A stretch of 37,553 nucleotides of DNA, from assembly GCA_006226595.1 (NCBI GenBank), contig SBGP01000117.1, positions 1 to 37,553 on the forward strand, read 5' to 3'. This DNA comes from Deltaproteobacteria bacterium. Its GTDB lineage: Bacteria > Myxococcota_A > UBA796 > GCA-2862545. The notes under the pieces were generated by a model that was not told the origin of the DNA, searched no databases, and saw nothing but the letters and a program-made list of their open reading frames with translations. Shown here piece after piece: positions 7,989-37,455 of the stretch. The first letter of the stretch is position 1; every line of letters starts with the position of its first letter. The translations under genes were made by a program, and so were the position numbers.

Positions 7989-9191
7989 CTACGGCGCGTC
8001 CTCTTCGACGAGCTCGAAGCGACCGAAGTCGTAGGGCAGGCCCTCGGCCTCTTCGACGCGGACCAGGCGCTCGCGGCGTCCTCGCTCCGCCAGCGTGGTC
8101 GCGCGGTGGTAGCAGAACGGCATGTTCCCGCGCTTGCCCAGGGTGCAGTGCGCGGTGAACGAGCAACCGGCGCCGCACAGCTCACCGTACTCGCAGCTCG
8201 CGCAGAAGCCCCACAGCTCGTCGGTCGTGCGGTTCTGGATGAAGTTGAGCTCAGGGGCTTCGTGGAAGATCTGCTCGACGCTCAGGTCGCGGATGTTTCC
8301 ACCGACGTAGGGCGCCGTGGGCAGGCTCGGGCAGGCCTTCACCTTGCCGTCGGACTCGATGCCGATCTGGAACACGCCCGCCTGGCAGCCGGTCCAGTGC
8401 ATGGCCGACTTGCCGGGATGCGAGCGGAGCAGCACCTCGTGGGGCCCGTAGTAGCCGAGGTTGTTGCCGAGCATCACGTTGAAGATGCGGTTGGGGGGCA
8501 GGCCCTCGGCGTGGGCCTTCTGGGCGTAGCGCACCTGGATCGCGGCGATGTCGTCGATGACCTCGGGGATCATGTACGGCTCGAGGATCCACTCCGGCCG
8601 GTCCGCCGCGCGACCCATGGGCACGGTGAGCTGGCAGCGCCACACCCGCGCGCCCGCGTCGTGGAGGATGTCCGCGGTCTCGGCGAGTACGTCCTTGTTG
8701 AGGCGGTTGACCTGGGTGTTGGCGGTGACAGCCATGCCCGCGTCCCGGGCGTTGCGCATGCCGGCGAGGGCGGCGGCGTGGCTGCCCTTGCTGTCGCGGA
8801 GCACGTCGTGAGCCTCGGGCGTGCCGTCGACCGAGAAGCCGATGGCCTTCAGGCCGGCCCGCGCCATGGCCTTGGCGCGCATGGGGTTCACGCCGCGCCC
8901 GCCGGTCTGCATGGTCACGCGAATGCCGTGGTGGGTGAGGTGCGCGATGACCGCTTCGATGCCCGGGTAGAGGTACGCCTCACCGCCGATCAGGGTGACC
9001 TCGCGGGTGCCGAGGCGCGCAAGCTGGTCCGCGACGGCGAAGACCTCGTCCCGCGACAGCTCGTTCTCCCGCGGCTGCACCGCCCGTGACCCACAGTGGG
9101 CGCAGGCGTGGTCGCAGCGCATGGTGAGCTCCCACACCACGTACACCGGGTGGTTGCGGTCGGCGTCGGTGACGATGCGAGGGTGGGTCAA
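7989..9191 (-). CDS. Radical SAM/SPASM-domain enzyme
   Basis: About 400 residues. The radical SAM motif CDHACAHC (Cx3Cx2C; Cys26, 30 and 33 from the chosen start) binds the SAM-cleaving [4Fe-4S] cluster. GGEAYLY follows as the GGE motif. The C-terminal SPASM region has GCQAG, CPSLP, then FCASCEYGELCGAGCSFTAHC and a last Cys, enough to hold two auxiliary clusters. SPASM proteins typically modify peptides or act as anSME/PqqE-like maturases. No precursor peptide was found nearby. The start is a TTG with GGAG upstream; an ATG at 9242 and a TTG at 9251 lengthen the protein by 17-20 unlikely residues. The stop is one base past the TPR gene's stop. Confidence 0.85.
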   Translation of the reverse strand: MTHPRIVTDADRNHPVYVVWELTMRCDHACAHCGSRAVQPRENELSRDEVFAVADQLARLGTREVTLIGGEAYLYPGIEAVIAHLTHHGIRVTMQTGGRGVNPMRAKAMARAGLKAIGFSVDGTPEAHDVLRDSKGSHAAALAGMRNARDAGMAVTANTQVNRLNKDVLAETADILHDAGARVWRCQLTVPMGRAADRPEWILEPYMIPEVIDDIAAIQVRYAQKAHAEGLPPNRIFNVMLGNNLGYYGPHEVLLRSHPGKSAMHWTGCQAGVFQIGIESDGKVKACPSLPTAPYVGGNIRDLSVEQIFHEAPELNFIQNRTTDELWGFCASCEYGELCGAGCSFTAHCTLGKRGNMPFCYHRATTLAERGRRERLVRVEEAEGLPYDFGRFELVEEDAP

Positions 9192-9292
9192 GCAGGCTCC
9201 AGAGCTGGCGCACAGCCTAGCAGCCGCGATGGGCGGCGGCATGACCGGCAACGCCCCGTCCGTCGTGGGGTAGGCTGCTCCGCGGAGGATGC

Positions 9293-9673
9293 ATGATTCG
9301 ACCGCCGATCATGGTGTGGATCACGGGCGTGTGCCTGCTGCTCGCCGGGCTCGGGAGCCTGGCCGCATCCGGCTTTCACGCGTTCACACTCGAGGAGGAC
9401 GGCAGCTACGTTCCGTGGGTGGTGCTCGCCCTCGCCGCGCTCGTCGAGATGGCGATGGGGCTGGTCGTGCCCATCGCGACCCGCTGGGCCAGCGCACTGG
9501 GCGTGCTCGTCGCCATCGGGGTCGGCACGGTCGCGGTCGCGCTCGGGTTCATCGCCGGAGGAGGCGCGATCTCGGCTGCGGCCGTCTCGTCGCTGCCGAG
9601 CTTCGGTGGCGCGTTCCTCGGGCTGATCACCCTGGTGCTCGTACACCAGTACCGCAACGAGCTCGAGGGCTAG
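9293..9673 (+). CDS. Small four-helix membrane protein
   Basis: 126 residues with about four hydrophobic segments: IMVWITGVCLLLAGLGSLAA, YVPWVVLALAALVEMAMGLV, SALGVLVAIGVGTVAVALGF and FGGAFLGLITLVLVHQY. An SD GGAGG sits four bases before the ATG, and a TAGGCT -10-like hexamer lies at 9271-9276. The family is not recognised and the function is unknown. It is divergent from the radical SAM gene and upstream of the kinase. Confidence 0.7.
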   Translation: MIRPPIMVWITGVCLLLAGLGSLAASGFHAFTLEEDGSYVPWVVLALAALVEMAMGLVVPIATRWASALGVLVAIGVGTVAVALGFIAGGGAISAAAVSSLPSFGGAFLGLITLVLVHQYRNELEG

Positions 9674-33773: not shown

Positions 33774-34280
33774 ATGAGCCTGCCCCCCGAGTCCGAGATC
33801 GCCGCGTTTGCCATCCGCGCCCACGGAGGCCAGCGCTACGGGGAACGCCCGTACCTGGCCCACCTGATGACGGTGGCGGAGAACCTCCGGCGCTACGGCA
33901 TCGACGACCCCGAGCTCATCGCCGCCGCCTGGCTGCACGACACGGTCGAGGACACCGACGTCTCGGTGAGCCAGATCGCGTCGGCCTACGGCGAGCGGGT
34001 GGCGGCCGTCGTGTCGGCGGTCACGACCTCGACCGAGGGCGCGACGCGCAAGGAGCGCATGGCGACGACCTACCCGCGCATCGCGGCGACGCCGGGGGCG
34101 GTTCTCGTCAAGCTCGCTGACCGCATCGCCAACGTCGAGGCGTGCTGGCGGTCGTGGGACGCGCGCTTGTTCAAGTACCGCGACGAGTACCCGGGCTTTC
34201 GTTCCGCGCTCAAGGTCGAGGGCGAGGGCGACGCGATGTGGGACCACCTCGACAAGTTGCTCGCCTACCGCAGCGCGTAG
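33774..34280 (+). CDS. Mesh1-like HD hydrolase (small alarmone hydrolase)
   Basis: 168 residues. HD fold matching the N-terminal hydrolase half of RelA/SpoT and stand-alone Mesh1/SAH: AIRAHGGQRYGERPYLAHLM (His30), WLHDTVEDTDVS with His55-Asp56 and Glu59-Asp60, YGERVAAVVSAVTT and VLVKLADRIANVEA (Asp116). By family knowledge it removes pyrophosphate from (p)ppGpp, or dephosphorylates related nucleotides, using a metal ion. There is no synthetase domain. Convergent with the HTTM gene; the ends overlap by 16 bp. Confidence 0.85.
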   Translation: MSLPPESEIAAFAIRAHGGQRYGERPYLAHLMTVAENLRRYGIDDPELIAAAWLHDTVEDTDVSVSQIASAYGERVAAVVSAVTTSTEGATRKERMATTYPRIAATPGAVLVKLADRIANVEACWRSWDARLFKYRDEYPGFRSALKVEGEGDAMWDHLDKLLAYRSA

Positions 34281-35140
34281 CCTCGGTTCTCGAACAGCCA
34301 CGGCGCGAAGAGCACCGGGTACATCGCGAGCATGCCCCACGAGAACATGCCCAGGTTCATGGTCAGGGCGATGCCGAAGTGGATGAGGAAGCCGCCGACG
34401 GCCCAGTGCGGGCAGTAGCGGGTGAGCATCAGGAACGGCGTGAGCTCGATGATGATGGTCGCCCAGCTCCCGAAGCGAAACAGCGGGTGCAGGAAGTACC
34501 ACCAGCTGCTGTCGAGGTTGGCGGCAAGCGGGTCGGTGAGGATGCGGTACAGCGGCGAGAACGCGCGCAGGCCCATCCAGTCGGGGTTGTTCTGCAGCTT
34601 GCCGATGCCCGCGCACAGGTACATCACGATCAGAAACCACTTCACGAGGTCGAAGAACCAGCCCTTGGCGGTCTCGACGGCCTCGCGCTTGCGCAGCAGG
34701 TTCTCGACCGACCACTTGCGGTGCGCCGGCGTGAACAGCAGGAACATCCACATCAGCCGCAGCACACGGTCGATGGCGCGGTCACCTGGCGGGTAGCCGT
34801 GGCCGAGCTGGGCATAGAACAGCACCCCGATGACGATGGCGGGCCGTACGCCGATGCCGAGCGCGATCATCAGCGCGCACACCACGGTCACGCCGTAGGC
34901 CACGAACCCCGCCTGGTCGCTGCCCACGAGATCGTCGAGGACCCACCAGTCCTCGTCGATGACGGAGAGTCCGCCGTCCTTGTACGGGAGGAAGAAGTCG
35001 TCGACGAGGCCGAGCTGCGCGACGCGAAGCAGGTCTCCGAGCACGCACAGCGACACGAGGATGCGAAGCAGGGCGATGGGCCGGATGTCCACGTCCCGAT
35101 CGCAGTGATCGACCCAGCGCTGCCACCACCGCGCGATCAC
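34265..35140 (-). CDS. HTTM (VKGC-like) membrane protein
   Basis: 291 residues with many hydrophobic segments. HTTM pattern: ALLRILVSLCVLGDLLRVAQLG, FFLPYKDGGLSV, WMFLLFTPAHRKWSVENLL, FDLVKWFLIVMYLCAGIGKL, then WWYFLHPLFRFG and ELTPFLMLTRYCPHWAVGGFLIHFG. By family knowledge HTTM is the membrane part related to vitamin K-dependent gamma-glutamyl carboxylase; bacterial HTTM proteins have no clear assigned substrate. GTG start overlaps the partner gene's stop by four bases (GTGA), so it is coupled to it. The protein is about 290 residues, the usual length for stand-alone HTTM. Confidence 0.85.
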   Translation of the reverse strand: MIARWWQRWVDHCDRDVDIRPIALLRILVSLCVLGDLLRVAQLGLVDDFFLPYKDGGLSVIDEDWWVLDDLVGSDQAGFVAYGVTVVCALMIALGIGVRPAIVIGVLFYAQLGHGYPPGDRAIDRVLRLMWMFLLFTPAHRKWSVENLLRKREAVETAKGWFFDLVKWFLIVMYLCAGIGKLQNNPDWMGLRAFSPLYRILTDPLAANLDSSWWYFLHPLFRFGSWATIIIELTPFLMLTRYCPHWAVGGFLIHFGIALTMNLGMFSWGMLAMYPVLFAPWLFENRGYALR

Positions 35141-35730
35141 TCCTCACCTCCGTCGCTCGGGCCCTTGTCGTTCTGGGTACGCATGGGCTCGAAGGCGGGT
35201 GGGCGGGCGATGTAGGTGCGCTTTACAGTGGAAGGCTCGCCGTCTGGGAAGGGTGCGGCGGTGCCGACGACACGCACCTCGGTGAGCTCGGGCTTGTCCT
35301 TGTGGGCCTCTCGGGCAATCCACCGAACAGCGCCGCGCCAGTTCTTGGCCTTGGGGTCGCTCGCGGTGGTCGACACCATGGGGCGGAACTTGCGCATCGT
35401 GAGCTGGGCCCGGCGCCAGTCGTGCTCCTTGTCCTGGGAGCGGAACCACAGCTCGTCGTCGACCCACACCTCGAGCCGGCGGACCTTGGACGGACCGTCG
35501 CGGTACAGGTGCCAGGAGTGGGAGACGCGAGGCACGCGCTGGGTCCACTCGAGGCGGTCGGCAAGGGGGCGTCGCACGAGCCGGTCGATGTCGCCGACGA
35601 GGACCTCGAGCTGCCCGCCGATACCCTGCTGAAGGAGCTTCTCGCGCTTTGCGCCCTCGTAGTCCCTGGGGTGGAGGCGGTCGAGGCCCGGGAAGCCGAG
35701 GATCACCATCCACGCGATGACCAGCAGCAC
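35137..35730 (-). CDS. Membrane-anchored partner of the HTTM protein
   Basis: 197 residues from GTG; no SD precedes this GTG, whereas an in-frame CTG at 35769 has GGAGG at 35774-35778 and would add MDPHTLRQVRAAA. One N-terminal membrane segment (VLLVIAWMVILGF), then an unrecognised domain with SHSWHLYRDGPSKVRRLEVW, WVDDELWFRSQDKEHDWRRAQ and TYIARPPAFEPM. HTTM genes are often coupled to a small membrane-anchored partner; the partner may be substrate or helper (inference). Confidence 0.7.
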   Translation of the reverse strand: MLLVIAWMVILGFPGLDRLHPRDYEGAKREKLLQQGIGGQLEVLVGDIDRLVRRPLADRLEWTQRVPRVSHSWHLYRDGPSKVRRLEVWVDDELWFRSQDKEHDWRRAQLTMRKFRPMVSTTASDPKAKNWRGAVRWIAREAHKDKPELTEVRVVGTAAPFPDGEPSTVKRTYIARPPAFEPMRTQNDKGPSDGGEE

Positions 35731-35948
35731 TGCCGCCGCGCGGACCTGTCGCAGGGTGTGAGGATCCAGGGCGCCTCCAGCGGACGCAGGCTAGCGCATG
35801 CGTGTGAAATCGCCCAGTGTTGATGCGGGTCGTGGTTTCACTCCGCCGGGGATGAGGCTTTGGAGGGCCTCCGCGCCAGGCGCTCGTTCCGAGCCGACAT
35901 GCCGACGCGCCGGACCTGGTTCGCGGCCGGCGTCCGGATCCTCGCGAG

Positions 35949-35997: not shown

Positions 35998-37455
35998 GTG
36001 GACTCGAGGTGGCGTTTTGCAGTGCTGGCGACGGCCACGACCGCGGTCGCCGCAGGGCTGGGGGCGTACCTTCTCGCCAAGCTGCCCCCCGACCCCCCCC
36101 TTCCCGGGGTGACCGAGGCGGACCTTCGGGCGCTCGAAGATGCGCTGTCCGCGATGCCCTCGCTCGCGGTCGAGGCGGACGCCGATTCCCCGGACGTCGT
36201 CGTGATCGTGCTCGATACGCTCAGGCAGGACCGGATCCCGCTGTACGGCTACGAGCGGCCGACGATGCCGATGCTCACGGAGTGGGCGGAGGACGCCCTG
36301 GTCTACGACGAGGCGCGCAGTGTCACCTCTTGGACCCTGCCCTCGCACGCCTCCTTGTTCACCGGGCAGTACCCGATTGACCACGGAGCGCACGGCAAGT
36401 CCCCCGAAGCCTACGACGGCGGGCACGACGCGTATCGGTTGCCGGACGACGCGACGACCCTCGCAGAGCGCGCCAGGGACGTCGGCTACCGAACCTGGGG
36501 AATCGCCGCCAATCGGGCGTACCTCTCGCGGAACTGGGGTCTGAACCAGGGCTTTGATCTGTGGTTGTGCGAGCAGCTCGACAACTATCAGATCGGATAC
36601 CCGACCGCCGAGCGCGTCACCGACCTCGCGCTCCGAGCCCTCGACGAGCGCGGGGACGAGCCGGTGTTCTTGTTCCTCAACTACATGGACGCCCATACGC
36701 CGTACTTCGTGCGCGATGGGCATCGCATGAGCGACGCGCCGCTCTACCCACGGTTTCAGCACGACACGCGCGCCTATCGGCTCGTGCGGCGCCTGGTGCT
36801 CTTGACCGGGTGGGGGCCGGCCCCCGTCCTCCGGGCCTGGAGCGATGCGTACGACGCCGACGTTTCCTACCTCGACCTCCAGGTCGGTCGCCTGCTCGAT
36901 GGACTCGAGGCGCGTGGCATCGACGAGAACGACTACGTGGTCATCCTCTCGGATCACGGCGAGTACTTTGGCGAACATGGCCTCGTCACACACTCGAAGG
37001 GCCTGCACGACGAGGTCGTGCGAGTTCCGCTCATCGTGCGAGGTCCTGGGTTTCCGGCAGGCCGAAGCGATGCGCTCGTCCAGACCCAGGACGTGCCCCG
37101 TTGGCTCACCGAGAAGATGGGCGCCGCACCGCTGCCCGACGCCGAGGCGACCGGCGAGCGGCAGGTGACCGAGCTGTACTGGACGCGGCGCCGTGAGATG
37201 GAGCTGTCCTGGATCGGGCATCGGTTCAACCACGTTCTGCGAGGCTTCTCGGATGGTCAGCGCACGGTCACCTTGAGTAGCCGTGGCGAAGTCGAGGCCT
37301 TTGATGGCCACGGTTCGGCGCCGCTCGACGAAACCTGGGTCGAGCCCCTTCGTAGCTGGGGCGAGCGTTGGATGGCGGATCGCGAGGTGACCGAGGGCGC
37401 CCAGGCGGCCGAAGATGACGTCGAGGCCCTCAGGTCGCTGGGGTACATGGACTGA
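35998..37455 (+). CDS. Sulfatase/alkaline-phosphatase-superfamily protein, Thr at catalytic site
   Basis: 485 residues from a GTG with AGGGGG upstream. N-terminal membrane anchor (FAVLATATTAVAAGLGAYLL). Family elements: VVVIVLDTLRQDRIPLYGY (metal Asp73), SWTLPSHASLFTG, NYMDAHTPYF, VILSDHGEYFGEHG (metal Asp-His) and the ending ALRSLGYMD. True sulfatases have Cys or Ser at the third position of SxCxPSR; here it is Thr113 in SWTLPSH, so formylglycine formation is not expected. Thr nucleophiles occur in the phosphotransferase branch. It may be a phospho- or phosphonate-type hydrolase or transferase, anchored at the periplasmic face. Confidence 0.85.
   Translation: MDSRWRFAVLATATTAVAAGLGAYLLAKLPPDPPLPGVTEADLRALEDALSAMPSLAVEADADSPDVVVIVLDTLRQDRIPLYGYERPTMPMLTEWAEDALVYDEARSVTSWTLPSHASLFTGQYPIDHGAHGKSPEAYDGGHDAYRLPDDATTLAERARDVGYRTWGIAANRAYLSRNWGLNQGFDLWLCEQLDNYQIGYPTAERVTDLALRALDERGDEPVFLFLNYMDAHTPYFVRDGHRMSDAPLYPRFQHDTRAYRLVRRLVLLTGWGPAPVLRAWSDAYDADVSYLDLQVGRLLDGLEARGIDENDYVVILSDHGEYFGEHGLVTHSKGLHDEVVRVPLIVRGPGFPAGRSDALVQTQDVPRWLTEKMGAAPLPDAEATGERQVTELYWTRRREMELSWIGHRFNHVLRGFSDGQRTVTLSSRGEVEAFDGHGSAPLDETWVEPLRSWGERWMADREVTEGAQAAEDDVEALRSLGYMD

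Follow-up and report, generated by a model that had tools for sequence, protein, structure and literature searches.

Translation of the partner gene, which lies directly upstream of an HTTM gene on the minus strand, very probably begins at a CTG codon at position 35769, as judged from the start region itself, from its counterpart in a congener and from the wider protein family. Comparative evidence alone points to this start, and a conventional one would cut into the membrane anchor of the encoded protein. The window, i.e. the whole stretch of 37,553 nucleotides that was analysed, is a complete contig, one of the 117 that make up a 7.2 Mb draft genome, and the features discussed here are collected in Table 1.

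Table 1. Elements of the partner–HTTM locus, in window coordinates.
Feature	Position	Strand	Description
Partner gene, read from CTG	35137..35769	minus	210 aa, unnamed family; from ORF and translation, and family alignment
Partner protein			putative N-terminal signal anchor (about residues 11–29) followed by a soluble part of about 180 aa
HTTM gene	34265..35140	minus	291 aa, PF05090; relative of the vitamin K-dependent gamma-carboxylase membrane domain
TGCGCTAGCCT block	35788..35798	minus	common to the congener, just upstream of the SD, within poorly alignable upstream DNA
In-frame TAG	35791..35793	minus	closes the frame 8 codons upstream of CTG 35769
GGAGG Shine–Dalgarno (SD)	35774..35778	minus	4 nt 5′ of CTG 35769, the modal spacing of the genome sample
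Proposed CTG start codon	35767..35769	minus	same codon and same SD distance in the congener (L002/L031)
Second in-frame CTG	35752..35754	minus	without SD; codon differs in the congener
First conventional start, GTG	35728..35730	minus	without SD; reads as Val inside the predicted membrane helix
GGAGG in partner 3′ end	35147..35151	minus	6 nt before the HTTM GTG; direct reading
GTGA overlap of partner stop and HTTM start	35137..35140	minus	TGA 35139–35137, GTG 35140–35138
HTTM Lys181 codon	34598..34600	minus	invariant in 27/27 aligned HTTM proteins; aligns with human GGCX Lys218

The start region and its counterpart in a congener

On the minus strand, the 5′ end of the partner gene reads CCT GCG TCC GCT GGA GGC GCC CTG GAT CCT CAC ACC CTG CGA CAG GTC CGC GCG GCG GCA GTG, and the open reading frame opens past the in-frame TAG and ends at the TGA that overlaps the HTTM start. 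The initial annotation had pointed to a GGAGG four bases 5′ of an in-frame CTG, and both sequence and coordinates were found as claimed. It had also described the GTG at 35730 as the first usual start and as one lacking an SD, which agrees with the absence of any in-frame ATG, GTG or TTG between CTG 35769 and this GTG, and of any SD tetramer in the 20 nt preceding the latter. A gene model built on coding signal started at 35769, a position that is approximate owing to smoothing over 31 codons, and RNA structure around the start was below that of shuffled sequences (z +1.6 for 71 nt and +1.1 for 46 nt). Between the in-frame stop and the CTG, no near-cognate codons were found in either the window or the congener.

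Under the proposed mechanism, the strong SD at the distance preferred by the genome would set the CUG in the ribosomal P site, where the initiator fMet-tRNA would read it with a first-position mismatch, giving a protein with the N-terminus Met-Asp-Pro-His-Thr-Leu-Arg-Gln-Val-Arg-Ala. Translated in this way, the protein carries an uncharged run of 19 residues with a net positive charge ahead of it, while a start at the GTG leaves 16 uncharged residues preceded by zero charge, in line with the earlier claim that a CTG start would give a full N-terminal membrane anchor. Under the GTG start, 13 residues would be lost, among them the basic residues and the initial turn of the predicted signal anchor, which should place the soluble part outside the cytoplasmic membrane.

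The homologue in the congener (genome G001, contig JAGSGY010000039.1; L002 and L031 are one gene) shares 74–76% protein identity and reads TAG CCT TGA GCC TCT GGA GGC TCT CTG AGC GAG AGG ATT CGC CAT CTT CGC GCC GCG GCT GTG. The GGAGG-N4-CTG arrangement is likewise present, the first conventional start is the equivalent GTG, and an in-frame TGA lies 6 codons 5′ of the CTG. The distance from the CTG to a shared RAAAV differs by exactly one codon between the two genes. In the 12 codons compared before the GTG, differences at codon positions 1/2/3 amounted to 4/2/9, which are small counts, compared to 23/17/65 over the last 138 aligned codons, and with this pattern the segment ahead of the GTG looks like coding DNA. 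The CUG is kept in one related species; as a single congener was found, its conservation rests on one comparison, covering these 12 codons. Upstream of the start region, the DNA of the window and the congener aligns poorly, the TGCGCTAGCCT block excepted. This block is possibly part of a promoter; no sigma-70 consensus promoter was found.

Start sites in the partner family and in the genome

A profile was built from 18 partner proteins, with L012 and L013 omitted from the 20 class I loci then known, and it retrieved 22 close members (class I), spread over 21 of the 63 genomes of the order, as well as more weakly matching class II relatives. The starts of all 22 class I genes were surveyed relative to an anchor placed 17 residues before a conserved Pro-Gly, with candidate starts listed up to 60 codons upstream. 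In all 20 relatives outside the genus, an in-frame ATG, GTG or TTG precedes the conserved motif, in 17 cases 4–8 codons before the anchor; the window and the congener are the only two of the 22 without one. The motif itself lies 4 codons before the GTG and, by alignment count, holds Arg, Lys or Gln in 17 of 18 rows followed by Ala in 16 of 18, while the two omitted loci have Ser-Ala (L012) and Lys-Ala (L013) there. The initial annotation had held that conservation beginning downstream of the GTG would speak against the CTG; the family is instead conserved ahead of the GTG, and together with the CTG and SD shared by the congener this supports the start proposed there. In one relative (L017; G034:C59), an in-frame CTG was seen 4 nt after a GAGG and three codons before the ATG taken as the start, an arrangement that is probably due to chance.

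The general habits of the genome were assessed in a sample of 21 stretches including the window (373,285 bases, 70% G+C), in which 359 genes were called by amino-acid composition and six-frame comparison, 339 of them with a closed 5′ end. An SD match of at least 5 was present in 141 genes; in these, the most frequent spacing was 4 nt (55 genes) and the starts were ATG in 95, GTG in 40 and TTG in 6. For 93 of the 339 genes, none of the nearby starts had an SD match of at least 4, and 12 of 18 relatives have no upstream start with an SD tetramer 3–12 nt away, so the missing SD at GTG 35730 is weak evidence when taken alone. By comparison, GGAGG-N4 precedes only 4 of the 4118 internal CTG codons in the 339-gene sample, and this scarcity, the modal 4-nt spacing and the recurrence in the congener argue that the SD and CTG arrangement is more than chance.

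General use of CTG starts was ruled out for this sample (373 kb, 339 genes), since SD-spaced CTG codons stand near background, at 19/428 in start zones versus 134/3844 inside genes; the corresponding figures for SD-spaced ATG are 91/319 versus 40/1574. A relaxed initiator tRNA, a route studied with the M1 variant (PMC11497404), was also rejected, as the anticodon arm reads GGGCTCATAACCC in the genomes of both the window and the congener, with the anticodon-stem G-C pairs intact. With CTG starts not enriched and the initiator tRNA normal, no genome feature was found that favours CUG, and the CTG of the window is an isolated case. AUG-to-CUG switches are reported for 2 of 61,358 reconstructed AUG starts (PMC5622118), a rarity that likewise counts against the proposed start.

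Three other explanations have to be set against a CTG 35769 start. That the GTG at 35730 is the true start, with the GGAGG-N4-CTG a coincidence or a relic of an older start, is highly unlikely, although GTG often serves as a start in this genome, as noted above, SD-less starts are not unusual, and the GTG codon is common to the congener. Besides lacking an SD, this GTG falls inside the predicted membrane helix and would leave it with no basic residue ahead, the family is conserved upstream of it, and a second species retains both SD and CTG. Moreover, L007, L014 and L016 carry a GTG at the same position, where it is an ordinary Val codon within genes that have their own upstream starts.

Initiation at the second in-frame CTG (35754) has only a very slight chance of being correct. 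This codon aligns with the ATG of the relative L014 (MEQVRAA) and sits 4 codons before the motif residue, and many relatives start 4–5 codons before the motif; yet it has no SD, and the congener has ATT at this point, likewise not placed by an SD. Slighter still is the chance that an assembly error or stop readthrough hides an upstream start such as the ATG at 35799. Both genomes are draft assemblies, the congener record being a MAG, and this ATG does lie in the frame of the partner, but it is shut two codons on by the TAG (ATG CGC TAG). Two separate assemblies, from organisms with 74–76% identity in this protein, both have the TAG, and the congener, which reads TTG CGC TAG CCT TGA at this site, adds a second stop. 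The start at CTG 35769 therefore stands as by far the most probable of these readings.

The partner–HTTM pair and its possible function

The neighbour was called an HTTM gene in the initial annotation, and its product reaches PF05090 at E 4.8e-14 (53 bits against a curated cut-off of 27.7). The junction of the two genes was surveyed in 30 rows, corresponding to 29 distinct loci because L002 and L031 represent a single gene; the rows did not include L022, and L008 and L014 were read from the junction sequence. The HTTM gene is directly downstream of the partner at 28 of the 29 loci, and an ATGA or GTGA overlap joins them at 27. The exceptions to the overlap are L006 (G054; stretch L119), where another ORF lies between the partner and HTTM genes, and L019, which has a TAA stop with the ATG 5 nt before. 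In-phase 4-nt overlaps are common in the genome sample (ATGA 31, GTGA 28, CTGA 30), and coupling is therefore argued from the conservation of the junction and not from a single overlap. Ribosomes ending at TGA 35137 could restart at the overlapping HTTM GTG, in which case both proteins would be made together, probably at a low level.

Class II loci (e.g. L020–L030) hold paralogues of the partner and were found in 17 genomes at E 1e-12, 9 of which also hold class I. They resemble the pair of the window in that the class II partners are related over the C-terminal part (22–32% identity over this part of the protein) and in that an overlapping HTTM gene comes next, with a 4-nt overlap in all nine class II loci checked (e.g. 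L029, L030, L023). Matches to the partner were found in 37 of the 63 genomes of the order and in none of 8 other genomes of the class (E 1e-9; 45 candidates per genome scored), while in a draw from the phylum 14 of 188 matched, all of them the genome itself or members of the same genus, family or order (17 candidates per genome scored). The partner family thus appears restricted to one order, having been found only there in these searches.

None of 18 class I and 6 class II partner proteins reached a curated Pfam cut-off, the window protein had no NCBIfam match, and a profile search of the PDB found no relative of the partner. The predicted models have a pLDDT of 57 for the partner and 35 for HTTM, and the weak partner model gave no structural match at E 0.001 or below. 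No third gene was found to recur near the pair across genera (18 stretches, of which 16 were compared, the partner being uncalled in L127 and L129), and no paper using the term 'HTTM domain-containing protein' was found in the library searched. The outcomes of the family, third-gene and literature searches are consistent with the earlier statement that the pair has no known substrate.

Several neighbours of the pair were recorded in passing. Directly after the pair in L131 (10199–12229; G030:C80) are two tandem paralogous ORFs resembling Cys-rich lipoproteins, followed by one that resembles a radical SAM enzyme on a reading of its Cys motif only. ORFs of the same cluster as those of L131 also occur near the pair in L119, L120 and L121, and one lies in the window at 7992–9308, far from the pair. 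The divergent neighbour in the window (35998–37455) encodes a sulfatase-family protein (PF00884), and none of the neighbours of the pair in the window cluster with those in the congener stretch L054.

The genome of the window has ten HTTM (PF05090) matches, each on a different contig and nine above the curated cut-off, while 3 of 14 control genomes have any. Another HTTM gene of this genome (L033 8296–9540; G000:C2) offers a possible second CTG start, in which the CTG shares bases with the upstream TGA (CTGA), a GGAGG stands 7 nt ahead, and the next 18 codons hold no conventional start; the congener counterpart in L053 also has an in-frame CTGA, but with an ATG at codon 6. This case is less telling, since in-frame CTGA overlaps are common by chance (30 in the sample).

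When a profile of 10 HTTM proteins was searched against the PDB, GGCX structures were matched at E 2e-16, over residues 47–317 of the 758-residue GGCX entries, whereas single HTTM sequences gave no GGCX match. Lys181 of the HTTM protein aligns with Lys187 of the matched chain, which is Lys218 in the 758-residue entries (an offset of 31 between the match ranges). In GGCX, the base that removes a proton from vitamin K hydroquinone is reported to be Lys218, while Asn158, Asn159 and His160 belong to the site that binds Glu (PMC12589487). The latter residues are unmatched in the HTTM proteins, where N158-N159-H160 align with the R-A-I of a GDRAIDR motif, as read from the profile alignment only. No propeptide-binding domain was found in the 291-aa HTTM chain, and the partner profile had no match to GGCX chains at E 5 or below. 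VKOR-family matches are present in the genomes of both the window (G000) and the congener (G001), while PF02621 (VitK2_biosynth) has two matches in G000 and none in G001.

A possible explanation, which we hold tentatively, is that the pair forms a two-subunit membrane enzyme that uses quinol without carboxylating glutamate, and in which the partner is the external subunit. The equivalent of Lys218, the unmatched Glu pocket and the VKOR and PF02621 matches favour such an enzyme. Most likely, HTTM and the partner would assemble into a membrane complex; its HTTM subunit may use Lys181 to deprotonate quinol, as GGCX uses Lys218, and the partner may supply the external, substrate-facing part. The lack of a usable fold and of a structural match, as well as the ORF that splits the two genes in G054, bear against a complex, and the unmatched His160 is a further point against the proposed reading. 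A reading in which HTTM instead truly carboxylates glutamate as GGCX does, the partner being either its substrate or a propeptide-binding subunit, is unlikely. The PF05090 match, the invariant equivalent of Lys218 (27/27), the VKOR family in both genomes and the menaquinone-pathway genes (PF02621) in one of the two would fit, but the Glu-pocket residues align with R-A-I, and the PDB profile search did not connect the partner to GGCX chains by sequence. Returning to the quinol-using enzyme, a more speculative and rather doubtful extension is that the CUG is a selected low-output device, kept by the strong SD in the genus, that sets a low common level for the two subunits. HTTM would here deprotonate menaquinol via the Lys218 equivalent, its glutamate pocket lost, and the external subunit of a new family would bring a substrate other than glutamate.

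Comparison with GGCX and with known CTG starts

Within the carboxylase superfamily, the pair can be regarded as an unnamed form that is encoded by two genes and in which the catalytic lysine is conserved. It shares the HTTM membrane domain and the Lys218 equivalent with GGCX, but the HTTM chain is without the propeptide-binding and Arch domains, the His160 pocket is unmatched, and a separate partner with no detectable relation to GGCX is encoded alongside HTTM.

Starts at CTG are of a known but rare kind, as the published cases illustrate. The FIB rep gene of F-like plasmids is reported to begin at a CTG behind GGAGG, with a GTG 14 codons downstream annotated as the start in most records, and a CTG-to-CTC change abolished replicon function (PMC11983097). 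The same source quotes 20 CTG-started genes among nearly 85,000 annotated ones, gives a reporter output for CTG approximately tenfold below that of TTG, and suggests that further CTG starts have been overlooked in annotation (PMC11983097). More cases could be sought with a simple rule, namely that relatives have upstream starts, that an SD stands at the modal distance and that no conventional start is available. The probable CTG start of the window is a clean, two-species instance of this already known rare start type, on an unnamed two-gene unit. It resembles FIB rep in the combination of GGAGG and CTG with a GTG shortly downstream (13 codons in the window, 14 in FIB rep), and differs from it in that the latter is a plasmid replication gene with experimental proof in E. 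coli, whereas the gene of the window encodes a putative membrane protein known from its sequence.
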